From IMG/VR virus record IMGVR_UViG_3300042876_000325, positions 1-36,199 of that record: 36,199 bases of DNA. One strand, given 5' to 3'. Shown piece after piece: positions 3,371 to 34,347 of this stretch (positions are counted from its first letter, which is position 1; each line of letters opens with the position of its first letter). Position numbers and translations under genes: made by a program. The notes under the pieces were generated by a model, which had not been told where the DNA came from, did no database searches, and saw only the letters and a program-made list of their open reading frames with translations. The stretch comes from a virus.

Positions 3371-3673
3371 CTAACCAAATTTATAATAGTCTTCATTCTT
3401 TTTCACGCCATGAGGTATCGCCAGCTCATACATAGACATTGGTCTATCAGGGAATAAGAAGGCTTCTTTAACGACCTTAAACTCTTTCATGGCCTTAGGG
3501 GAGAAAACTCTCTCTCCGTTAGGGGTTCTTACAAGTACAAACCTCCCTGACTTTTTCGCCCTATCAAAGTAATCCTTTCTCACTCTACAAAAGTCATAGT
3601 CTAAGGAGTCCTGCTTATTGAAGGGTTTGTGTATGTCTACGATGACAAAGTTTCCTAGAGTTTGTATTTGCAT
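3371..3673 (-). CDS. Hypothetical protein (100 aa)
   Basis: The protein has a beta-rich N-terminal half and a mixed alpha/beta C-terminus, without cysteines clusters or membrane segments. AAGGGA precedes the ATG at good spacing, downstream of a strong hairpin (3688-3714) in the leader. No family was recognised; its place among early small genes suggests a host-takeover or accessory function, which is only inference. Confidence 0.6.
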   Translation of the reverse strand: MQIQTLGNFVIVDIHKPFNKQDSLDYDFCRVRKDYFDRAKKSGRFVLVRTPNGERVFSPKAMKEFKVVKEAFLFPDRPMSMYELAIPHGVKKNEDYYKFG

Positions 3674-3687
3674 ATATAATTCCCTTG

Positions 3688-3714
3688 TGCCAGACTTTTA
3701 CGATAGGTCTGGCA
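3688..3714 (-). other. Perfect 8-bp intergenic hairpin
   Basis: TGCCAGAC and GTCTGGCA flank an 11-base loop in the 49-base gap between two genes. There is no U-tract, so it is more likely a processing or stability element than a terminator. Confidence 0.55.
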
Positions 3715-3722
3715 TAAAAGAA

Positions 3723-3935
3723 TTACTTAACTAATCCCTTTAGTTCTTCAATAAACGCATCGTCAAGAATCTTCACAATTCTATTTTTCTTTTTCAATAA
3801 AAGTCCTTTTCTCCGAAGCGTTGCCGCCATTCCCTGAAGCTGGACTTTTGTACAACCAGTCGCTTTTTCCAAATCTTCCATGGAGGAAGTATTCCAAAGT
3901 TCAGCAACTTTTCTATATTGATCTTTTCTATCCAT
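3723..3935 (-). CDS. Small helix-turn-helix protein
   Basis: The 70-residue protein contains SMEDLEKATGCTKVQLQGMA followed by a basic TLRRKG segment, the layout of a winged-helix or HTH domain in which the second helix reads DNA. The start was set at 3935: AAAGGAGG lies 8 bases upstream, and the GTG at 3944 is part of that site. A regulator role is inferred from the fold pattern. Confidence 0.6.
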   Translation of the reverse strand: MDRKDQYRKVAELWNTSSMEDLEKATGCTKVQLQGMAATLRRKGLLLKKKNRIVKILDDAFIEELKGLVK

Positions 3936-7342: not shown

Positions 7343-8482
7343 CTAATACTCATAACTAAATGGAGTCACTTGGTAATTACAATCTCCCGATCCTGTCCAG
7401 GCAACTTGATAGAATGACTTATAGACAGAAACGGTGGCATTTCCTGCTGAAAGAGAGACTTGAATAGGAGCCGCAAGGAGTCCTCCATTATCTTTTCCTC
7501 CGCCGGTAATTGCGGCGATACTTCGCAAAGGAACCACAGGGAGAGTGAAGGTCTTAGTCACTGCGTTACTTGTTCCGGTATTGGTATTATCCATCATAAT
7601 AGAACACGTATTCCCATTGATTGAGTACCGGGAAACAAATGTAGGATTTGGACTAAATCCCGCTAGCGTAGGAGACCAGGCAAACCACCCGGGGAAAGCA
7701 AAGGGTGAGGTCTTTTTCGACGTATAAGGGCTTGAAATAGCCGCATTGGCCACAGGAGTACCCGAGTCTCCGGCGAGCGTTCCGGTCGTTGTTCCTGAAG
7801 CTAACCCAAAGCCAACAAGGTAAAAATACTCCGTTGTCCCACCCTGAACAAATCTAAGTTTGTCTCCCTTTGCTAAGGATGTGGAAAGATCAGTGTTTAT
7901 CGTAATGACTGATCCTGAAGAGAATGACCACGTTCCTGAAGCGGCTATCCATCCATCATTGACCTCAGTAGCAAGTGTAGCCCAATTAGGGGTAGTTCCG
8001 TTTGTTGTAAGATACTGAGTATTCGTCCCTATGCCAAGTCTTGTTACCGTTCCCCCGGCGCTTCGATAGAAAAGATCCCCTGTAGCGTCTGAAGAAAGAG
8101 TAATAGTTGGGGTTCCCAGAGTAAGGGATGCCGCCGATCCTCCACTTATTGATGGCGTTCCTATCACCGGCGTTCCATTGATGACGTTAGATGTCAGCGT
8201 TCCTCCCTGGATAGTCGAGGTCCCAATAAGTGTCGTTCCTATCGTCCCTCCTATCCATGTTGAAGTTCCGTGCGTCTCTCCGACTGTTCGTGCGGCAAAC
8301 TTCCCTGCGGTGAAATTTTTAAGAACAGCCGTTCCCGAGTTCGTTCCTAGGGTGTATTCAATCGTTCCAATAGCCGAATGAAGAGTAGTGTGATCAGCAG
8401 CATGGTCCGGTCCTGTTGCGAGAGGGCTTGTACCTGCGGGATCGGTAAATGTATCTATTTGTCCTGGATATAAAGAAGGCAT
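7343..8482 (-). CDS. Tail fibre protein
   Basis: The 379-residue protein opens with DHAADHTTLHSAI, a common head of phage fibres that docks to the tail, followed by Gly-Thr-Ile repeats (about 60-135) suggesting a beta-solenoid shaft, and a beta-rich C-terminal domain (about 250-379) with aromatic residues that could bind a surface receptor. The GTSTIQGG segment is shared with the fibre-like protein at 11306-11941, hinting at shared modules. Its ATG lies exactly 7 bases after the -10 box, so its message should be leaderless. Confidence 0.7.
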   Translation of the reverse strand: MPSLYPGQIDTFTDPAGTSPLATGPDHAADHTTLHSAIGTIEYTLGTNSGTAVLKNFTAGKFAARTVGETHGTSTWIGGTIGTTLIGTSTIQGGTLTSNVINGTPVIGTPSISGGSAASLTLGTPTITLSSDATGDLFYRSAGGTVTRLGIGTNTQYLTTNGTTPNWATLATEVNDGWIAASGTWSFSSGSVITINTDLSTSLAKGDKLRFVQGGTTEYFYLVGFGLASGTTTGTLAGDSGTPVANAAISSPYTSKKTSPFAFPGWFAWSPTLAGFSPNPTFVSRYSINGNTCSIMMDNTNTGTSNAVTKTFTLPVVPLRSIAAITGGGKDNGGLLAAPIQVSLSAGNATVSVYKSFYQVAWTGSGDCNYQVTPFSYEY

Positions 8483-8488
8483 ACTTTA

Positions 8489-8516
8489 ATAATACGGTTA
8501 TCTTTTATTAGGTCAA
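8489..8516 (-). promoter_or_regulatory. Leaderless promoter of the tail fibre gene
   Basis: TTGACC (8516-8511), a 16-base spacer ending in ATAACCG, TATTAT (8494-8489), six bases TAAAGT, then ATG. The predicted transcription start falls on the A of the start codon. The same layout, including TAAAGTATG, is at 14700-14727. Confidence 0.75.
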
Positions 8517-10366: not shown

Positions 10367-11275
10367 TTAATTAAATATATCCGAAAGAGACGGAAGGGAA
10401 CTTCCCGTAGAGCCTGATCCTGCGAGTTTATTCGTATGAGCAATTTGCGCCTGGAGAAGCGCAAGCTGTAAAGGATTTTGCTGCTGTTGAAATGATAGCT
10501 GTGCTTGCTGAGCGGCGGCTTCGACTTCTGCCTGTTTCTGTTGTAGAGCAAGTTGTGCCGCAGCCTGTGCCTGTTGCTGATTATTCTGATAAATACCAAG
10601 TCCCTGAGTTATCGCTGAGGATGCTCCGCCTGCCTGAAGCTGAGCTATGGCGTTTCTTACCGCCCTCTCTTGTTCAGTTTCTTGCGTGGGAAGTTGTGCT
10701 ATTTGGTTTTGTAATGCACGAATAGCATCTTCCCTATTCTGTCCGACAGTAGCAGTCTGACCGGTATAAAACTGTGTCACCGGGGAAAGCTGCTGGTTTT
10801 GGTACTGATCATAAAACCCTGATTCTGAGGAAATACCACGCCGACCGAGTTCCCGAGATCCTGCGATACTCGTTCGTTGTTCTTCTTTCTGCTGATTGGC
10901 AGTAATTTGACTCAAAAGGTTCTGATATCGTTGTTCGAGAGGCTGCTGCTGCGCCTGAAGCTGGGCTCCTGTTTGAGCATATTTCTGCTGTATTTCAGGA
11001 ATAGACGCCTGGAGAGAAGCCACCGCCGGAGCATTGGCCTGCTGTTGAAGTTTTAACTGCTGCTGGACAATAGAGGCATAATCTCCTCCCCCGGAGTATC
11101 CTCCAGAAAGACCTCCTGAATACCCTCCTAAACCTGAACGAATCTGGTCGGAGGACATCGTGTCTCCACCGGCAAAGTAGGGAAGGCCTGCTTTTTCGAG
11201 AAGGGATTTATATTCACTTTCCTGCGCAGGATTTCTTCCTGTTTTCGCTAATTCAACTAGTCGATCGTCAGCCAT
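10367..11275 (-). CDS. Gln-rich coiled-coil protein, probable ejection protein
   Basis: The 302-residue protein has an acidic N-terminus, a Gly/Ser patch (about 45-65), then over 200 residues very rich in Gln and Ala with heptad character. Such composition is typical of P22 gp7/gp20-type internal proteins. Its neighbours (nozzle-like upstream, larger ejection-like downstream) support that. It starts without a Shine-Dalgarno sequence. Confidence 0.5.
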   Translation of the reverse strand: MADDRLVELAKTGRNPAQESEYKSLLEKAGLPYFAGGDTMSSDQIRSGLGGYSGGLSGGYSGGGDYASIVQQQLKLQQQANAPAVASLQASIPEIQQKYAQTGAQLQAQQQPLEQRYQNLLSQITANQQKEEQRTSIAGSRELGRRGISSESGFYDQYQNQQLSPVTQFYTGQTATVGQNREDAIRALQNQIAQLPTQETEQERAVRNAIAQLQAGGASSAITQGLGIYQNNQQQAQAAAQLALQQKQAEVEAAAQQAQLSFQQQQNPLQLALLQAQIAHTNKLAGSGSTGSSLPSLSDIFN

Positions 11276-11305
11276 AATTTAATTGTATGAACATTCTTTA
11301 TCCCG

Positions 11306-11941
11306 TCAATTTATTGTCGTTACTATCCCCTTTTGGACCACTATCGTCCCTAACGTCGTTGTTGAACCAACAAAATCCACCGTCTTTACATACACCGCTG
11401 TTCCCGTCGCTCCTGCCGTTCCCCCAACCTGATATGTTCCCGCATTTGACGTTCCTCCCTGAATTAAGGACGTTCCTATCGTCATTGTTCCTAAAGTACC
11501 TGCAAAAAACTGTACTCCGGTATTTCCCATCGTTCCTATAACATTTGAGGAGGAGTCTTTTAACTGAAATACGCCTTGAGTATTGGCTGAGTCGCCTAAA
11601 ATACCCGTTCCCCCCATGAGTTTTGTCCATGCCACATCATTTATTTTTGCGTTTGTTACTGCATTGGCTTGGATCTTGAGAGAGGATACTGCGTTTGTCA
11701 TCAAAGCGTTCGACCCTATTGAGTTATCCGCTATCTGTTCCGTTCCTATGACTCCGGCAGCAAGCTTTGCTCGTCGTATCTGTCCCCTATCTACTCGCTG
11801 ATCCCATTGGGTCGAAAGTTCCTCAATGGGTGCTTGTGTCTGTATCGTCGTTCCTCCCGCCATCTGATTTCCGTGGTTATTTAACGGATTAAACTTAGAT
11901 CCGAAAGAAGATATTGGTCTTAAAAAAGGATCAAGTGGCAT
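11306..11941 (-). CDS. Fibre or tail-tip protein with Gly-Thr repeats
   Basis: The 211-residue protein has a helical N-terminal half (about 45-105) with a repeat like IADNSIGSNALMTNAVSS, as in trimeric fibre connectors, then a beta-solenoid-like Gly-Thr region (about 125-200) similar to the fibre at 7343-8482. It begins one base after the nozzle-like gene ends. Probably a tail-needle or short fibre; the exact part is not known. Confidence 0.5.
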   Translation of the reverse strand: MPLDPFLRPISSFGSKFNPLNNHGNQMAGGTTIQTQAPIEELSTQWDQRVDRGQIRRAKLAAGVIGTEQIADNSIGSNALMTNAVSSLKIQANAVTNAKINDVAWTKLMGGTGILGDSANTQGVFQLKDSSSNVIGTMGNTGVQFFAGTLGTMTIGTSLIQGGTSNAGTYQVGGTAGATGTAVYVKTVDFVGSTTTLGTIVVQKGIVTTIN

Positions 11942-14508: not shown

Positions 14509-14693
14509 AGATTAATTATTTTAGCGTTTGTAGGTTTTCTTCCGTCTCCTTTATAAACACCGCCATAGGAATAGCGGATATCATTATAGGTAACTCCAGC
14601 CTCATTATAGGTAATCCCTTCGTCATTTAACGTTCGTTCAGTCTGTTCGATGGATCGAATGGAGGGTTTGTCTTTCAGGATGGAACCAGTCAT
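14505..14693 (-). CDS. Small structural protein, leaderless start
   Basis: The 62-residue protein contains a short Tyr/Asn repeat (TYNEAGVTYNDIRYSYGG) of a type seen in small phage neck-region proteins. It starts exactly seven bases after the -10 of its promoter, so it is predicted leaderless, and it overlaps the adaptor gene by 4 bases. It leads the neck-nozzle-ejection operon. Confidence 0.6.
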   Translation of the reverse strand: MTGSILKDKPSIRSIEQTERTLNDEGITYNEAGVTYNDIRYSYGGVYKGDGRKPTNAKIINL

Positions 14694-14699
14694 ACTTTA

Positions 14700-14727
14700 A
14701 TAGTATGGTTCTCTCGTTTTACGTCAA
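14700..14727 (-). promoter_or_regulatory. Leaderless promoter of the neck/ejection operon
   Basis: TTGACG (14727-14722), 16-base spacer, TACTAT (14705-14700), TAAAGT, ATG at 14693. The -35 overlaps the stop of the glycosyltransferase gene, so this unit can be transcribed independently of the glycan cassette. Confidence 0.75.
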
Positions 14728-15896
14728 CCTTGAGGATAAATATGTCTCTCGATATTTGAGAGATACGGAAGCCATTTTGTATTAAAAATAAGGTCTGCAT
14801 CATATGTATCGACAACGTGCCTTCGTGCGTCTAAAGCCATTTGTTTCCTATTTGCCCTAATCATCTTCTCCATTTGATCGTAAAGAGACTTCACTGAGGG
14901 AATACCCACATACCCCATTGTCGGAGAAAATTGTTTAATGGCTACTTCACAAACAAATCCCGTTTTACCTTCAATAACCAATTCAGGCATTGAGGTAAAC
15001 CTGTTAACAATAACCGGTGTTCCACAGCTTTGCGCTTCAACGGCAGGCATACCAAACCCCTCCGCAGAGGAGGGAAGAAGAAGACAATCCATCATGGAGT
15101 AAAATCCTGCCATATCAAAGTCTTTTACTTTATACATTTGCTTATAGTCATCAAGATAAAAGATATCCTTCTCTAACCCAAGAAACTTTGCATACTCCCC
15201 TATAGGAAAGGCATATCCCTGGATCTTATTAATGTGAAAGAATATCCCGGATTTAGGGTGTTGTTTCTTAAAGAGTGCGAATGCATCAAGCACTTCCTGA
15301 AATGACTTCCTTGGAGGAATTTCTTTATTTGCTGATACCATACCAAAAAGAAAGAGATCGGGAGGAATACCTATCGATTTTCTATAGTCCTCTTTAGAAA
15401 AGTCCGGGGGTTTTAATATAGATGTTTCCACAGAACAAGGAATATAGGTTGAATACATTCCATTATTTTTTATCTGTTCTTCTCCAAATTTGGAACAGGA
15501 GATAATTCTATGTGCGCTTCTAAGTCTATCTACCAAAGGAGACCCCATAGGATCACGGTCCACCGGAGTCCAGGGAATCCATCGTTTTAATTGATTTACC
15601 CAGTTCATATCCATGGTATGGACGTCCTGCCAGGTAATCGAAATATCCGCATTAAAGTCCTTTGAGTGATTTACCAACGCATCCTCTCCATAGGGCATTC
15701 CCATGGAGGGGTACATAGTAATTCCCTCTTCCTCTTTAATAGCCCCCTGAAGACCATAGAAATTTACCATTGCCGTAGGAAATCCGGCGTTTCGTATTCT
15801 ATAAAGAATAGCCCGGATAGAGGAAGCATACCCTGAAGTAGCCCAAGGGGCGTTACTCGAAATAAGCACTCTAAGTTTTCGTGTGGGTTTATCCAT
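14724..15896 (-). CDS. GT-B glycosyltransferase (family 4-like)
   Basis: The 390-residue protein transfers a sugar from a nucleotide donor to an acceptor. The C-terminal Rossmann half holds EGFGMPAVEAQSCGTPVI at about 279-296, the E-x7-E donor-binding signature (Glu279, Glu287) of GT4 enzymes. The N-terminal half binds acceptor. It lies in a three-gene cassette with a second glycosyltransferase and a methyltransferase, between capsid and neck genes, so it probably builds or edits a glycan on the virion or the host surface. Which one cannot be told here. Confidence 0.8.
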   Translation of the reverse strand: MDKPTRKLRVLISSNAPWATSGYASSIRAILYRIRNAGFPTAMVNFYGLQGAIKEEEGITMYPSMGMPYGEDALVNHSKDFNADISITWQDVHTMDMNWVNQLKRWIPWTPVDRDPMGSPLVDRLRSAHRIISCSKFGEEQIKNNGMYSTYIPCSVETSILKPPDFSKEDYRKSIGIPPDLFLFGMVSANKEIPPRKSFQEVLDAFALFKKQHPKSGIFFHINKIQGYAFPIGEYAKFLGLEKDIFYLDDYKQMYKVKDFDMAGFYSMMDCLLLPSSAEGFGMPAVEAQSCGTPVIVNRFTSMPELVIEGKTGFVCEVAIKQFSPTMGYVGIPSVKSLYDQMEKMIRANRKQMALDARRHVVDTYDADLIFNTKWLPYLSNIERHIYPQG

Positions 15897-15897
15897 A

Positions 15898-16635
15898 TTA
15901 TTTAATCAAACTGTCAATATATTCGGTAACTTCAGGTTGAAAATACGCTTGGTAGTTCATTTTTGCCCCCTGTTCTCCCCCGGCGAAGTGAATAACCTTT
16001 AGTGTCTTTTCCATAGGGATTATAGGAGATTGGGGAATAACGATCTTCCCCTCTTTCATTACAGCGGTATTCCAGTCTGCCTTAGCCGCAAGACCATACC
16101 AGTTCGGTCCTTCATCAAGCATCTTTACCCGATAGTTTCCATAGAAGGCAATGATATTTAATATATCCTGCTCTCTCATAGGATAATTGACGATATTCGG
16201 TCGTGAACAGAGAGTAATCCAGTGTTTAACCATCTCTTTACTTCTGAGGACAACAAATCCATTATTCACATATGCCTGAGGAGGGACATCCCATACGGAG
16301 ATAAGACCAAACTTCTGGGCATCCATTCTGTTGTAGTTATATACACAACCTACATCATAGAGAGGATCTTCAATGACCTCTTTCAGAGAGCCGGTTATTA
16401 TCTGGTCAGAGTCGAGTTTGATAATCGTCTTATATTTCTCTAAATATTTATTTGCAAATAATGGAGCAGCGATATAAAAAACATGAGGACGGGGAACACC
16501 CATTGAGTCTATCTCTTCATCCTGAACCTCAATAAGAGGGATATCGGGATGAAAGTTTTTCAGTGAGTTCCGAAGCATGGAGATATGTTCTCCGTGCTTC
16601 TTATCGTAGATAGTGAGAAATGCTATATCACTCAT
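15898..16635 (-). CDS. GT-A glycosyltransferase (family 8-like)
   Basis: The 245-residue protein has IIKLDSDQIITG at about 71-82 with a DxD metal motif (Asp75, Asp77) as in GT8/GT-A enzymes, and a conserved-looking VNNGFVVL segment typical of the acceptor side. It starts inside the end of the FkbM gene (8-base overlap), so the two are coupled. Donor and acceptor are unknown. Confidence 0.75.
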   Translation of the reverse strand: MSDIAFLTIYDKKHGEHISMLRNSLKNFHPDIPLIEVQDEEIDSMGVPRPHVFYIAAPLFANKYLEKYKTIIKLDSDQIITGSLKEVIEDPLYDVGCVYNYNRMDAQKFGLISVWDVPPQAYVNNGFVVLRSKEMVKHWITLCSRPNIVNYPMREQDILNIIAFYGNYRVKMLDEGPNWYGLAAKADWNTAVMKEGKIVIPQSPIIPMEKTLKVIHFAGGEQGAKMNYQAYFQPEVTEYIDSLIK

Positions 16636-17284
16636 GTTTTCCTATAAATACCATCGCTTGTGTTTTTGCCTGGGTTACGGTAAATCCTCTATCTTCTAAC
16701 ATAGTAATTATCTGGACAAAGGTTTTATTCGTCCAGTCATGGTATTCGACAACGATCGTTTTAATCTTGGGTGCTATTTCGGTGAACTCATCGCTCGAAA
16801 GAATATCAAACTCCGCTCCTTCTACATCGAGATTAAAAAGATCCACATGATCGATAGCGTTATCCTCAAATAGCTTTTTAATAGTGACTGTTTTTACTAT
16901 TTCTTCTCCCGTATTCTTTCCAAGAAGTCCTGGGGTAAGAGAGTTCATTGTTGAGTTTTCCGTATGATAGAACTTCATCTCTCCATTTTTATTGGATATC
17001 GCAACAGGAACAACCGTGACCTTATCTTTCATCTCGTTAAAATCAAGCATCTTATTCAGTGTTTCCAAGTGAGGAGCGGAAGGCTCAACGGCAAATATCT
17101 TTTTTGCTGAGGGGTAAGCGAGAATAGTAAACATCCCTATATTAGCCCCGGCTTCGATATACACCCCATCGGGGACAAGAAGAGGAGCGTAGATATTTTC
17201 AAGAAAAGTTTCTTTTACCTCATCAGCTACGTGGTCCTTAAAAAAGTCTCGGTAAAAGATTGCTTTATGTGTATTCATATTCAT
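16628..17284 (-). CDS. FkbM-family methyltransferase
   Basis: This 218-residue class I SAM-dependent methyltransferase probably O-methylates a sugar. Motif I EAGANIG is at about 44-50, the acidic EPSAPHLETL at 67-76, and the FkbM signature LDVEGAEFDIL at about 152-162. It is shorter than many FkbM enzymes but has all core motifs. The ATG lies on the 3' arm of a strong hairpin (17283-17324), so translation may be restrained. It opens the glycan cassette. Confidence 0.85.
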   Translation of the reverse strand: MNMNTHKAIFYRDFFKDHVADEVKETFLENIYAPLLVPDGVYIEAGANIGMFTILAYPSAKKIFAVEPSAPHLETLNKMLDFNEMKDKVTVVPVAISNKNGEMKFYHTENSTMNSLTPGLLGKNTGEEIVKTVTIKKLFEDNAIDHVDLFNLDVEGAEFDILSSDEFTEIAPKIKTIVVEYHDWTNKTFVQIITMLEDRGFTVTQAKTQAMVFIGKHE

Positions 17285-17377
17285 AGAAAGAGGGCAGCCC
17301 CAAGAGAGACTGCCCCGTTTCTATGCCTTGCTCTTGGTCAAGGACTTTTATGAGTTTATTCTAACAGGCCATGTCAA
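17283..17377 (-). promoter_or_regulatory. Promoter-like element and hairpin leader of the glycan cassette
   Basis: A 24-base element at 17354-17377 (TTGACA, 8 bases, TAGAAT) matches 31512-31535 at 20 of 24 positions, all differences being transitions. Downstream, ATAGAAA/TTTCTAT and GGGCAG/CTGCCC make a two-part stem (17283-17324) whose last bases overlap the FkbM ATG. A smaller CCTTG/CAAGG hairpin lies between. The long stem could also act as a weak terminator for the upstream gene. Confidence 0.55.
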
Positions 17378-17392
17378 ATGACTTTTTACCTT

Positions 17393-18076
17393 TTACAGTA
17401 AATTGTAATTTTCTTCAGCGACGTAGCTAGAACGAACCCGAACGATGAACTTATCTGTCGCAGCAACAACTTTCGTTCCAGAGAACGAGTGATTGACTAC
17501 ATCAATGTTTCCATTAGTGATTGCTGTTCCAAGGGTGCCACCATTGAAGGTAGTTACCGTTGCGTTATCAATCCAAGTGATCGACTTCACATCCGTAACT
17601 GCTCCAATTTTAACCCCAAGACCGAACTTTCCAACGTTTCCTGCCCCTGTACCAAAGGCCATAGACAGTTTGGGCGTTCCATTTCCAACTGATCCTCCTG
17701 TAAGGAACGAGAACGTTCCGCTAGTGACTGATCCGAAAATAGCCGTTCCATTCTGTGTACCTCCATTGGAGGTTAAAGGAATAACAACCTGTTCAGTAAT
17801 TGAACTACCGAACTGATCTTTTCCATTTACCGTCCATGTTCCTCCAAGGGTGTTAGATCCTCCGACCATATAGAGAAGGTTCCGGGGATAATCAGGGACG
17901 TTGTTTGTGATAACAACTGCCTGAGTAGACGTGGTTCCTCCAACGGGAGTCGTACCAATCCAGACGAGAGAGATAGTAGGAAGATGTATCTGAACAGTCT
18001 CAACTCTATCCATTTCATCCGGGGATACCTTAAATCCCGCAGAGCGCATTGCAAAAGCGTTTTTCTTAAATGCCAT
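17393..18076 (-). CDS. Beta-rich virion structural protein
   Basis: The 227-residue protein is dominated by Gly/Thr/Val beta strands with no enzymatic motif. Its place after the coat gene and two small genes suggests a head decoration or neck protein. The start is preceded by TTATTAT and lacks a Shine-Dalgarno sequence. Function is inferred only from composition and location. Confidence 0.5.
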   Translation of the reverse strand: MAFKKNAFAMRSAGFKVSPDEMDRVETVQIHLPTISLVWIGTTPVGGTTSTQAVVITNNVPDYPRNLLYMVGGSNTLGGTWTVNGKDQFGSSITEQVVIPLTSNGGTQNGTAIFGSVTSGTFSFLTGGSVGNGTPKLSMAFGTGAGNVGKFGLGVKIGAVTDVKSITWIDNATVTTFNGGTLGTAITNGNIDVVNHSFSGTKVVAATDKFIVRVRSSYVAEENYNLL

Positions 18077-29515: not shown

Positions 29516-30037
29516 CTATCTCCTCAAGCTTATAAATGCTGGTTTGGGACTTTTAAGAAACTTTGTTGTCTGATCATCTATATCAGTTGTATCTTTCGGC
29601 CAATATTGTTCTATTTCTTTTAAGGTATCTAGGTGTTCTTTAATATCTGAGGCGTCGTGACTAAACCCATCATGCTCATAATCCTTATCTCTTCCCCCGC
29701 CAACTAACTTCACCGGCATTCCCTCGTGATTGATATATGTCCTGACAGTCTCAAAACCACGATAAATCAAAAAGGGAGTTATTGAATAGACCACGGGTAT
29801 TTTACCACCTTGAGCAAGACCCACGGCGATATCAAGAAGCGTCTGTTCAGAAGCACCAACGTTGAGATATCTCTCAGGAAATGACTCTTTATGCTGATCA
29901 AATAGCTTGTATCCCAAGTCTCCTGTAAGAAGCCAAACCTCTTTATGAAGCGCCATATACTTATAGAGAGAAAATCCAAAGTATCCTCTCATAGAGTTGT
30001 GAAGTTTCCAATTAATAATAGTATCTTCAGTGTTCAT
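29516..30037 (-). CDS. Split transketolase, pyrimidine-binding subunit (short)
   Basis: The ATG at 30037 has AAGGAG four bases upstream, so earlier ATGs are rejected. The 173-residue product has GASEQTLLDIAVGLAQGG at about 61-78; Glu64 is the residue that activates thiamine diphosphate in transketolase-like enzymes. The usual C-terminal third domain is absent, making it far shorter than the usual C-terminal half of about 310 residues. It pairs with the upstream gene. Substrates are unknown. Confidence 0.75.
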   Translation of the reverse strand: MNTEDTIINWKLHNSMRGYFGFSLYKYMALHKEVWLLTGDLGYKLFDQHKESFPERYLNVGASEQTLLDIAVGLAQGGKIPVVYSITPFLIYRGFETVRTYINHEGMPVKLVGGGRDKDYEHDGFSHDASDIKEHLDTLKEIEQYWPKDTTDIDDQTTKFLKSPKPAFISLRR

Positions 30038-30665
30038 TAATCTCCTTGTATTTTTCATCATCCATAACAACGTAATGAGCGTCTAGTCCCTGTAGCCACT
30101 TTGGGTATTTATCCATATTTACTCTTACAAATGAAACTTTCGGAAAATTGTCCTGCATAAATGACTGGACTCTCCATTCGAGTCTGTCCTGTTCTATCTC
30201 TTTATATGCTCCATAGCCATTAGCAATAACGACGATAACTAAATTAGATATCTTTAACTCAGCGGCATTTCTCAATGCCTCCCACCAGCTTCCTTCACTC
30301 GATGCTCCATCAGTCGTTAAAACATACACAATCTTATCCGGGTCTGCCAAGGCCATTCCCAACCCTATTCCTAACCCATGACCCAAACTTCCTCCTGAGG
30401 CCCAGATAAAGTGTTCGGGATCTCTATTACAGTGAACACCATGCTGTTCAAATAGCTTCTCTGCATCAAATCCGTGTTTTTTCTCTAAAACACAATAAAG
30501 AGCGAGTGAAGAGTGAGCAGCATCCATGATCACCGGATCATCCTCACCTCTCGTATCATAAATGGCTTCAAGAAGGGGAAGAACAATTAAACATGATCCT
30601 ATATGAGAGAGTTTCTTTTTATAGGAGATTTCTAAAACTCTTTTTTCAAGATCAGTGAGTTTCAT
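30027..30665 (-). CDS. Split transketolase, thiamine diphosphate-binding subunit
   Basis: The 212-residue protein is a shortened N-terminal half of transketolase. His21, His51 (DAAHSS) and His96 (SLGHGL) match cofactor- and substrate-site histidines, and TDG (118-120) with Asn149 matches the GDG-x(25-30)-N metal/thiamine motif. It overlaps the second subunit by 11 bases. With the adjacent epimerase it probably makes or moves a two-carbon unit in a sugar pathway, not central metabolism, but this is inference. Confidence 0.8.
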   Translation of the reverse strand: MKLTDLEKRVLEISYKKKLSHIGSCLIVLPLLEAIYDTRGEDDPVIMDAAHSSLALYCVLEKKHGFDAEKLFEQHGVHCNRDPEHFIWASGGSLGHGLGIGLGMALADPDKIVYVLTTDGASSEGSWWEALRNAAELKISNLVIVVIANGYGAYKEIEQDRLEWRVQSFMQDNFPKVSFVRVNMDKYPKWLQGLDAHYVVMDDEKYKEINEH

Positions 30666-31509
30666 AAGAAGAAATAGTATGTGTAAGACCTAAAATTATA
30701 TCATTTTGAGGAATCCATCCCATATTCTTTAACTTGGTGTTATCAGCAACCCAGTGGCGATTATCATAAGACCGAAGCTTTGCCTCTTTTACTTTTGTTT
30801 TCTTCCTCATAATCTGCCGAACGAATTCATATACCTCTCGGTTAGTATATTGTTGACCGGTCCCTACGTTCACGATAGTAAACGGATCTTTCCCATGAAT
30901 AAGTACGTTAGTCGAAACAAGAACACCATTGATAAAATCATCAATATATGTCCAGTCATGGGCAGCGTTTCCATCTATCGTTAAAACCTCTTGATTTCGT
31001 ATTGCCCTGATGATGGTAGGAATAAATCTAAAGTCCGCTTCACCAGGGCCGTATATCGAGAAGGGTCTAATCACACAAACTTTGAATGAGTCTGAAGCTA
31101 AATAATGAAGTATTTCCGTCGCTGATGCCTTAGTTGCTCCATACATCGTATTAGGCGTGAGGACATCCTCCTCATTCATAGGTTCTTTTTTCTTCCCATA
31201 CTCGCTCGAACTTCCAAACTGAATAAACGCCTCAACCTTCGACTCCTTGGCAATTCTCGCAAGATTATGGGTGTATACGATGTTAGACCGTATGGACTCA
31301 TACTCATCCGTCTGCGTTGAGTGATTTCCATATGCCTGGAGGTTATAAACTATTCGGGGGTTATAGTTCGCAAAAATAGCCCGAAGCTCATTACCGTTTT
31401 CTAAAATATCATGGGAAATAGTGATAAGATTAAATCCTGCTAATTGAAGTTTGCTAACGAGGTGCTTTCCGATAAATCCCGATGATCCCGTAACCAGAAC
31501 ATTGACCAT
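30652..31509 (-). CDS. NAD-dependent sugar epimerase/dehydratase
   Basis: This 285-residue extended short-chain dehydrogenase/reductase has GSSGFIG (about 8-14) for NAD binding, SSSEYG near 100 and the catalytic Tyr123-x3-Lys127. It likely acts on a nucleotide sugar (4-epimerase, 4,6-dehydratase or reductase). It overlaps the transketolase pair, so the three form one unit. The start follows a -10-like TAGAAT by six bases, with no Shine-Dalgarno. Confidence 0.85.
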   Translation of the reverse strand: MVNVLVTGSSGFIGKHLVSKLQLAGFNLITISHDILENGNELRAIFANYNPRIVYNLQAYGNHSTQTDEYESIRSNIVYTHNLARIAKESKVEAFIQFGSSSEYGKKKEPMNEEDVLTPNTMYGATKASATEILHYLASDSFKVCVIRPFSIYGPGEADFRFIPTIIRAIRNQEVLTIDGNAAHDWTYIDDFINGVLVSTNVLIHGKDPFTIVNVGTGQQYTNREVYEFVRQIMRKKTKVKEAKLRSYDNRHWVADNTKLKNMGWIPQNDIILGLTHTISSYETH

Positions 31510-31544: not shown

Positions 31545-31727
31545 TCAATATGAAATAACAAACTTCTTCCATTTTTTCACGTTATCTTTTAAGGGGATAT
31601 TATATTCTTCTAACCATTGTTTTATCACTCTTTTACTTGCTCCATGAACAAAACAAAGGGTAGCTACTGACATATCTAAAGAGATGTACTGATGAACAAG
31701 CGTTTGTTTTTCAGGACGAACCTTCAT
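31545..31727 (-). CDS. Small HTH-like protein
   Basis: The start at 31727 has a perfect AAGGAGG 5 bases upstream. The 60-residue product contains LVHQYISLDMSVATLCFVHG followed by a second helix with IKQWLEEY, a homeodomain-like HTH layout. It could be a repressor or a transposase-like fragment; no catalytic part is present. Confidence 0.55.
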   Translation of the reverse strand: MKVRPEKQTLVHQYISLDMSVATLCFVHGASKRVIKQWLEEYNIPLKDNVKKWKKFVISY

Positions 31728-31861
31728 ACCATCCTCCTTCGATAAACTCGACGCCAACACTCAACGTGCCAGCGCTTCTTTTTATAAAGATAATTAGGCA
31801 TATTCCCTTGGGGGATTTCTTTCTTACATCCTTCACACAAACGTATTATTTTTATCTCCAT
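31724..31861 (-). CDS. 45-aa zinc-finger-like protein
   Basis: The ORF overlaps the next gene in ATGA and encodes CEGC (about 9-12) and HVEC (about 32-35), a possible C2-HC zinc site on a basic chain. GAGG lies very close to the ATG. It may bind nucleic acid; no family recognised. Confidence 0.5.
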   Translation of the reverse strand: MEIKIIRLCEGCKKEIPQGNMPNYLYKKKRWHVECWRRVYRRRMV

Positions 31862-32726: not shown

Positions 32727-33014
32727 TTAAGTTTTGTATCCTGTAAGAAACCATTTCCAATTCCATTTATCCTCTTTATCCACACCTTCAATCTTTCGTT
32801 TTAAGAAATATAGTCTTGTACTCCACCCTGTATACCATGCTTCGCCTTGAGTATATTTCTTTTTTATTATCTTTAACTCTTCAAGAACGTGCCTCCACCA
32901 TTCAATAAAGAAATATAATCGGGAAAACTCATACCGATATGAGTAGAGTATTTTATTTCCATAAATGATCCTAATCCCAAAGTATTTATTTTTATTTATC
33001 CATAGTCTCTTCAT
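32727..33014 (-). CDS. Hypothetical aromatic-rich protein (95 aa)
   Basis: The protein is very rich in Tyr, Trp, Lys and Arg and predicted helical after residue 25; no known motif. Its leader is one copy of the 32-base repeated leader element (33012-33043), so it belongs to a set of early genes controlled alike. Confidence 0.55.
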   Translation of the reverse strand: MKRLWINKNKYFGIRIIYGNKILYSYRYEFSRLYFFIEWWRHVLEELKIIKKKYTQGEAWYTGWSTRLYFLKRKIEGVDKEDKWNWKWFLTGYKT

Positions 33015-33043
33015 ACCTTCTTCCCCTTTTTGTAGGAGGGAGA
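33012..33043 (-). repeat. Repeated leader element, family A, copy 1
   Basis: These 32 bases match 33745-33776 at 31 positions. On the minus strand the element starts right after the preceding stop codon and ends with GGGGAAGAAGGT-ATG, thus including the ribosome-binding region and start codon. Confidence 0.75.
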
Positions 33044-33256
33044 TTAACCAATAATATAATCTAGCAATTTCTTAATAACATCTTTTGCGCTTCTGTAGTC
33101 TATAGTGTTTTCTTCAAGCAATACTTCTGGTTTCTTTTCTTGTAACTGTATACTATTTACCTTTTCCCAATCCTCTTGTGTATAGGGTTTTTCTCCATAT
33201 TTTCTTATGGTTAACTTAAATTCATATCTTCCTGCAAGTGCATGAGTCCATGCCAT
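33044..33256 (-). CDS. Hypothetical protein (70 aa)
   Basis: Start set at 33256 because AAAGGAG lies 5 bases upstream; the ATG at 33271 is part of that site. The chain is mixed-charge with a helical C-terminus (AKDVIKKLLDYIIG). No family recognised. Confidence 0.55.
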   Translation of the reverse strand: MAWTHALAGRYEFKLTIRKYGEKPYTQEDWEKVNSIQLQEKKPEVLLEENTIDYRSAKDVIKKLLDYIIG

Positions 33257-33462: not shown

Positions 33463-33488
33463 ATCCTCTCTCCATCAGTGAGTAGACT
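33460..33488 (-). repeat. Repeated leader element, family B, copy 1
   Basis: The sequence resembles 34300-34326: both read AGTCT, a short variable part, CACTGATGGAGAG, a few bases, then ATATG with the start codon. Confidence 0.65.
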
Positions 33489-33490
33489 GA

Positions 33491-33565
33491 TTATTCTTGG
33501 GCTTTTATAGTTGCCCAAATAGCTAAAATTATTAACGTAATAAATATAGTTTCGTTTGTATTCAT
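33491..33565 (-). CDS. 24-aa membrane microprotein
   Basis: An ATG in an ATGA overlap with the preceding stop opens a 24-residue ORF that is one transmembrane helix (TIFITLIILAIWATI). GGGAAGAAGG is upstream. The overlap and the hydrophobic pattern favour a real microprotein, but its length makes this uncertain. Confidence 0.4.
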   Translation of the reverse strand: MNTNETIFITLIILAIWATIKAQE

Positions 33566-33747
33566 ACCTTCTTCCCTTTGGGGGAGCGCCGTATACCAAC
33601 AAGACTATTTATACAATGTATTCCCGATAGTTTTCCGCACTCGTTACACTTACAGCTCATAAATAGATTTTCTCCCCTATAAAATGAGTAGGGCGTACAG
33701 TAGTACCAGTTTAGTAGATGTTTAATTTTATGTAATAGCTTCTTCAT
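33562..33747 (-). CDS. Hypothetical protein with CKCNECGK zinc motif
   Basis: The 61-residue protein contains CKCNECGKLSGIHC (about 32-45), a cysteine cluster that may bind zinc, with a basic tail. Its leader carries the second family A repeat. No family recognised. Confidence 0.5.
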   Translation of the reverse strand: MKKLLHKIKHLLNWYYCTPYSFYRGENLFMSCKCNECGKLSGIHCINSLVGIRRSPKGKKV

Positions 33748-33776
33748 ACCTTCTTCCCCTTTCTGTAGGAGGGAGA
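33745..33776 (-). repeat. Repeated leader element, family A, copy 2
   Basis: Matches 33012-33043 at 31 of 32 positions (one T/C difference). A shorter relative lies before the 24-residue ORF (33563 onward). Confidence 0.75.
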
Positions 33777-34106
33777 CTAGACTAACCTATAATTATTATA
33801 ATTCATGTTTTCTATTTTCGTATTACGCACTAAATCAATCCAATCATGAACGTAATAACCTATAACATATTTGACGGCATCTTTTATTTTTGGTATAATA
33901 GAGATATGAGCATATGGTTTTTGTGTTACAAATGTTTCAAGTACAATTCTGTTCCTGCTACCAAAGAAACGATGGATTGGTACGATGGTCTTGGCGATGA
34001 TTGTACCTACTGCCCGACCTGCGATAACGAACAGCCCTGTGAGATGGGAATAGGTAAAAAACCTCCTATGCCTCTCGGTGCTCATTTGTTCAAATAATAG
34101 TTTCAT
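33777..34106 (-). CDS. Minus-strand ORF overlapping a plus-strand gene (doubtful)
   Basis: The 109-residue ORF from ATG 34106 has GGAGG four bases upstream, and its stop codon abuts a leader element as other genes' stops do. However it overlaps the plus-strand zinc-ribbon gene (33906-34097) entirely, and its overlapping part looks like a shadow. Its last 40 residues lie outside the overlap. Either one is real, or both form an antisense pair. Confidence 0.35.
   Translation of the reverse strand: MKLLFEQMSTERHRRFFTYSHLTGLFVIAGRAVGTIIAKTIVPIHRFFGSRNRIVLETFVTQKPYAHISIIPKIKDAVKYVIGYYVHDWIDLVRNTKIENMNYNNYRLV
33871..33899 (+). promoter_or_regulatory. Plus-strand promoter of the zinc-ribbon gene
   Basis: TTGACG, a 17-base spacer and a perfect TATAAT (33894-33899), then six bases to the ATG at 33906. 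The consensus match and exact geometry make chance unlikely. Confidence 0.75.
33906..34097 (+). CDS. Plus-strand zinc-ribbon protein, leaderless
   Basis: The 63-residue protein has CYKC (about 7-10) and CPTC (about 36-39), a zinc ribbon around an acidic DWYDGLGDD segment, and a Pro-rich basic tail. Codon choice and composition look genuine. Start at 33906 follows the perfect -10 box by six bases; an upstream ATG at 33846 lies before the promoter and is not used. It is convergent with the gene at 34090-34302 (8-base overlap). Function unknown. Confidence 0.6.
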   Translation: MSIWFLCYKCFKYNSVPATKETMDWYDGLGDDCTYCPTCDNEQPCEMGIGKKPPMPLGAHLFK

Positions 34107-34302: not shown

Positions 34303-34326
34303 ATTCTCTCCATCAGTGATGAGACT
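34300..34326 (-). repeat. Repeated leader element, family B, copy 2
   Basis: Shares AGTCT, CACTGATGGAGAG and ATATG with 33460-33488. Confidence 0.65.
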
Positions 34327-34347
34327 TTTCCTTCTTCATATCTTCCT

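Follow-up and report, generated by a model that had tools for sequence, protein, structure and literature searches.

Two extended -10 promoter-like elements before a split glycan pathway, and a predicted start-codon-blocking leader, in an uncultured tailed phage

Introduction

Why would two operons at distant places in one phage genome begin behind nearly the same 24 bases? The question is raised by the IMG/VR record IMGVR_UViG_3300042876_000325, the whole 36,199-nucleotide stretch of which (the window) was analyzed here together with related records. The window comes from a tailed phage of an uncultured family and carries two similar promoter-like elements, each in front of a cassette of sugar genes. 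An initial annotation of this DNA interpreted the pair as a joint switch for a two-part glycan pathway.

Results and Discussion

Similarity and Location of the Two Elements

Copy 1 of the element (TTGACATGGCCTGTTAGAATAAAC) occupies positions 17377-17354 of the minus strand, 70-93 bases 5' of the ATG of an FkbM methyltransferase gene, and copy 2 (TTGACGTGGTCTGTTAGAATGAGC) occupies positions 31535-31512 of the same strand and ends 2 bases 5' of the ATG of an NAD-dependent epimerase/dehydratase gene. The annotated agreement was confirmed, with the elements read on the minus strand: 20 of the 24 bases are identical, all four differences are transitions, and the match lengthened upstream reaches 25 of 30 bases. 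Each copy lies 5' of a minus-strand operon, and the coordinates of both operons bear out the annotated order of element and cassette. The first operon encodes the FkbM methyltransferase (PF05050 in Pfam, 16628..17284), a family 8 glycosyltransferase (15898..16635), and a group 1 (GT4-like) glycosyltransferase (14724..15896); the second encodes the epimerase (30652..31509), a transketolase-like N subunit with TPP binding (30027..30665), and a transketolase-like pyrimidine-binding subunit (29516..30070). No third copy was found at up to 3 mismatches in the 36 kb record, which makes two in total, and no exact match occurs elsewhere in IMG/VR. The search of relatives that the annotation had suggested yielded no convincing non-coding match in the first 12 of them.

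A 20/24 match is not rare when the whole window is considered, as it holds 16 such same-strand pairs, against 0-3 in shuffled sequences. When only intergenic segments were compared, the element pair scored 19, and a score of at least 19 was reached in 3 of 400 shuffles; when the comparison of copy 1 was restricted to the 400 bases that precede the epimerase, the score was 20 and the shuffle maximum was 12.

Promoter Class

Both copies contain TGn directly 5' of a TAnnnT hexamer (TGT-TAGAAT), that is, an extended -10 box. This box (TGTTAGAAT) lies at 17366-17358 in copy 1, with a predicted transcript start near 17351, and at 31524-31516 in copy 2, where 6 bases separate it from the epimerase ATG. 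A TTGACA-like box 16-18 bases 5' of the -10 box was absent, as judged by a best-score search for copy 1 and by reading for copy 2, and inspection of both copies found no sigma-54 signature (GG-N10-GC). The only TTGAC near either -10 box lies 8 bases upstream, a spacing unsuitable for a functional -35 box with TAGAAT. The 8-base gap noted in the initial annotation is thus real, but its reading as a special class of promoter did not hold. Over 44 sequences (631 kb), the distribution of TTGAC-to-TANNNT spacings has a sharp peak at 17 bases (94 cases, against a background of about 32), indicating that the phage family uses ordinary sigma-A-like promoters as its main class; a spacing of 8 bases is only slightly raised (50 cases, the same as at 22 bases), and several pairs so spaced belong to conserved coding sequence of the terminase gene.

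Promoter-like scores of 18 gaps upstream of FkbM exceeded those of shuffled sequences (combined P = 6e-11). The score of the window's own FkbM gap is not significant by itself (P = 0.08), and the promoter case for the window rests on the phage family as a whole. Together with the extended -10 boxes, these results support the promoter-like nature claimed for both elements, which look like extended -10 promoters of ordinary type that are independent of a -35 box. Middle and late promoters of the Thermus phage P23-45 belong to the same extended -10 class, with TGn and a hexamer but without a proper -35 box (PMC7403470), and the P23-45 terminase is a distant relative (27%) of that of the window phage. 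The elements described here differ from the P23-45 promoters in having conserved bases further upstream, and their transcript starts are predicted ones.

The identity upstream of TGTTAGAAT is greater than a bare promoter requires. In the 21 bases before TGn, the two copies match at 16 positions, whereas the average over all pairs of extended -10 promoters in the phage group is 6.0 (SD 2.3); thus, the similarity of the elements exceeds the shared promoter core. Two promoters within one relative (L004) match at 14 of these 21 bases, so that similarity between promoters of one genome is not unique to the window phage.

A Predicted Leaderless Epimerase mRNA

In published leaderless genes, TANNNT is found about 12 bp before the start codon (PMC3160421; PMC12340547). 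In the window and its relatives, TGNTANNNT was found exactly 6 bases upstream of an ATG in 7 cases and at any other distance in 0-1 cases, and TANNNT stands 6 bases before an ATG in 18 cases, compared with about 5 at most distances. In copy 2, TAGAAT is followed by six bases and the epimerase ATG, without a Shine-Dalgarno sequence, and the epimerase mRNA is therefore predicted to be leaderless. The leaderless arrangement is absent from copy 1, in which 73 bases lie between the end of the -10 box and the FkbM ATG. The 6-base gap and the missing Shine-Dalgarno sequence, seen at the epimerase and several other genes, resemble the published leaderless genes; the difference is that they occur here in an uncultured phage family and are mixed with ordinary Shine-Dalgarno genes.

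Three similar 40-base promoters of the leaderless kind (TTGAC-N16-TANNAT-N6-ATG) were also noted before virion genes of the window, at 8477-8516, 11270-11309, and 14688-14727. Directly upstream of copy 2, positions 31545-31760 encode a small protein that appeared helix-turn-helix-like by eye; it had no Pfam match and is a candidate regulator.

Two Cassettes of a Split Glycan Pathway

The positions of the two cassettes are conserved by synteny. In relatives, the epimerase and the two transketolase-like genes lie directly before the terminase gene, and the FkbM, family 8, and group 1 genes lie directly after the capsid block, the last gene of which (PRE; 17393..18076 on the minus strand of the window) is conserved just upstream of the FkbM leader. 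Co-occurrence was scored from two markers, the transketolase C gene and a strong match to FkbM (E below 1e-30). Both cassettes were present in 14 of 25 records and neither in 9; in the remaining two, which carried a single cassette, the contig was cut off at the side of the missing one. The one-sided Fisher P value, calculated by hand, was about 5e-5, ignoring relatedness and with an FkbM threshold set after seeing the data. Since the two cassettes occur together and hold the same positions in relatives, the two-part glycan pathway of the initial annotation is well supported. From the position of the genes, we infer that this pathway decorates the virion.

Relatives without the transketolase pair carry other sugar genes at the same place, namely a SIS isomerase, a GHMP kinase, and a nucleotidyltransferase (L024 and L046), or DegT aminotransferase sets (L040 and L047). 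By gene content, the sugar-precursor module is swapped between relatives at a fixed site beside the terminase gene, and the transferase module remains in its position after the capsid block. A different sugar-nucleotide gene set upstream of the terminase gene was likewise seen by eye in L051.

A Bacillota host is hinted at, without being settled, by a relative of the terminase (43%) found in a contig of a Pelotomaculum MAG and by a DnaD-like helicase loader. In the right-hand region of the window, two duplicated gene leaders were observed (33002-33060 and 33735-33793, 83% identical; 33467-33498 and 34305-34336, 81% identical).

The Predicted FkbM Leader and Its Start-Codon Hairpin

We consider the FkbM leader, which would block the start codon and is probably two-state, a more interesting feature than the element pair. 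The leader predicted from copy 1 is 67 nt long and ends in a strong hairpin (17282..17325, minus strand) that includes the FkbM start codon. It is preceded by a small hairpin (CCUUG/CAAGG, 17326..17343), whose loop holds segment A (CCAAGAG, 17337-17331); the complementary segment A' (CUCUUGG, 17306-17300) lies in the loop and top of the strong-hairpin stem. The predicted 71-nt fold of the whole leader has an energy of -35.3 kcal/mol (z -5.4) with the FkbM AUG paired in the stem. No Rfam family scored above its curated threshold, and no tRNA was found.

We read the gap between the last capsid-block gene and FkbM in about 20 relatives. The layout of a promoter, a leader of roughly 60-90 nt, and a long hairpin against the ATG is kept in about a dozen uncultured relatives, and in most of the relatives read, the predicted leader measures 58-86 nt and the hairpin ends within about 0-11 bases of the FkbM ATG. 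The hairpins next to FkbM have z values of -3.6 to -7.0 in nine genomes, and scans of all loci showed that the strongest hairpins abutting a start codon are mainly those at FkbM. Across four genomes that could be aligned, a 20-pair stem shows 100% pairing with compensatory changes at 7 pairs, a level reached in 0 of 500 shuffles; this covariation supports the start-codon hairpin. The relatives share descent, so that the P values given here for the promoter scores and the stem are optimistic. Some relatives depart from this layout. Five (L029, L048, L050, L108, and L110) instead show a short terminator and, after it, a promoter that in some cases is leaderless. In L101, an inserted gene that appeared HNH-like by eye and had no Pfam match replaces FkbM, with its ATG within the stem. 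A wider FkbM search for additional leaders found no new cases linked to PRE; L139, which has a promoter and hairpins with complementary loops, was found after the pattern had been defined and was left out of the counts.

In T4, a helix covers the start region of gene e, soc, 49, and I-TevI, and longer read-through transcripts are poorly translated (PMC3014915). The FkbM start codon of the window likewise lies inside a stable predicted mRNA helix. A further likeness is found in L019, L103, and L107, where the -10 box lies within the hairpin or borders it, and a transcript begun at that promoter would be missing the 5' arm in whole or in part; in L019, the position of the promoter would free the RNA of the 5' half of the helix. 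In contrast to T4, the entire hairpin is downstream of the promoter in most relatives and in the window, where RNA from the predicted start at 17351 would include that half, and the loop of the hairpin can pair alternatively with upstream bases.

In leaders whose promoter lies 5' of the hairpin, the main hairpin has a loop complementary to the bases immediately before its 5' arm (combined P = 1e-7 across 16 leaders, failing ones included). When the leader was folded only up to A', 10 of 11 leaders had the pairing of A with A' as their best structure; when the full leader was folded, the start-blocking hairpin displaced this pairing in 9 of those 10, and L017 kept the early pairing. In the window, 7 of 7 bases of A and A' pair, which is not significant alone (P = 0.11), and the case for this pairing rests on the family rather than on the window alone. 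As in transcription attenuators, two mutually exclusive pairings are conserved in relatives, and the early one (A:A') would give way to a later, stronger hairpin (B:B'); unlike them, the FkbM leader was not found to contain a leader peptide, an aptamer, or conserved primary sequence. The lack of conserved primary sequence across the family argues against a ligand-binding riboswitch. The folding models suggest a two-state or T4 gene e-like leader, which may act on translation, on termination, or on both, since the sequence is compatible with each. A bolder and rather doubtful proposal is that these leaders form a novel type of phage RNA, with a conserved architecture and no conserved sequence, that alternates between loop-to-upstream pairing with an open start and the start-blocking hairpin, thereby metering the glycosylation of virions against the production of capsids.

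Explanations for the Element Pair and the Leader

Taken as a whole, the explanation that we favor, with a probability of about 60%, comprises two extended -10 promoters, a leaderless epimerase mRNA, and a start-blocking FkbM leader. The host primary sigma factor would recognize both promoters without needing a -35 box, and these would start the two operons of the split virion-glycan pathway. At copy 2, transcription would begin at the A of the epimerase ATG and yield a leaderless mRNA, and at copy 1 it would begin about 67 nt before the FkbM ATG. In the FkbM leader, the early pairing of the loop with upstream bases would compete before the hairpin holding the start codon forms. The leader would probably limit expression of the FkbM operon at translation and partly at transcription, most of all on RNA that reads through from a capsid block that is presumably highly expressed. 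The near-identity beyond the promoter core is confined to this phage and would most likely reflect copying or a shared promoter preference within one genome.

The excess similarity could instead mark the binding site of a phage or host regulator (shared GTC-N4-GAC / TTGACRTGGYC) that activates both cassettes. Such a switch would account for identity upstream of the core well above that of other promoter pairs, and it is consistent with the co-occurrence of the cassettes and with the epimerase-operon promoters of L016, L017, and L023, which are also extended -10 promoters with no obvious -35 box. Conservation argues the other way: in eight relatives with both cassettes, no significant similarity links the FkbM gap to the 400 bases before the epimerase, the best such match in the nearest relative (G003) is the extended -10 core itself, and epimerase operons elsewhere usually begin at an upstream small gene. 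As no tested relative shares an element between the cassettes, a switch based on it is not conserved and would be possible only in this phage. The element also has just two copies, and the mRNA architecture downstream differs (predicted leaderless versus structured leader); we therefore consider this kind of joint control unlikely. The two promoters may yet be used in concert through a factor that favors -35-independent promoters, as gp39 of P23-45 does (PMC7403470). A recent copy of one promoter fragment, without joint control, is a stronger contender that still falls short of an even chance. It fits the transitions-only differences and the similar promoters found within single genomes (those of the window ending at 8516, 11309, and 14727, and the L004 pair), but the similarity ends near the promoter boundaries, as that of a randomly copied fragment need not. 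Despite the frequency of 20/24 matches in the whole window, mere chance is very improbable given the intergenic shuffles and the location of both copies at promoter positions.

The leader invites another reading, in which copy 1 drives a small non-coding RNA whose 3' end is the hairpin, itself an ordinary capsid-block terminator, with FkbM expressed by read-through only. A promoter followed by about 60-90 nt and a hairpin suits a small RNA gene, a T-rich run lies 3' of the stem in most relatives as well as in the window, and a Listeria sRNA gave a weak Rfam match below threshold (E = 0.09, score 18.4 against a gathering score of 45). Several of the FkbM hairpins followed by T-runs may indeed be plain terminators. 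Nevertheless, L019, L035, and L044 keep the hairpin against the ATG with no T-run after the stem, the stem reaches or enters the start codon, for which a terminator has no need, and the ATG within the L101 stem belongs to a different gene; a small RNA thus also seems unlikely.

Significance and Similar Hairpins Elsewhere

On the favored explanation, this uncultured family of phages may keep its capsid operon apart from a conserved virion-glycan pathway encoded at two sites, by extended -10 and leaderless promoters on one side and a start-codon-blocking leader on the other. With modules exchanged beside the terminase gene and transferases fixed in place, virion glycosylation in such phages becomes a testable trait, and the FkbM leader offers a clean target for reporter tests in laboratory bacteria.

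Further hairpins were observed in the window and in relatives. In the window, a further strong hairpin (3673-3729) overlaps the ATG of the gene at 3371-3673, with no clear loop-to-upstream pairing. Before FkbM in L094, L138, and L140, a hairpin loop appeared by eye to be complementary to the interval between hairpin and ATG, a possible start-codon pseudoknot. Hairpins near or over the start of a DnaD-like gene in L028 (minus strand, ATG 2491) and of a SIS-domain gene in L024 (ATG 4914) have the same loop-to-upstream complementarity as the FkbM leaders.
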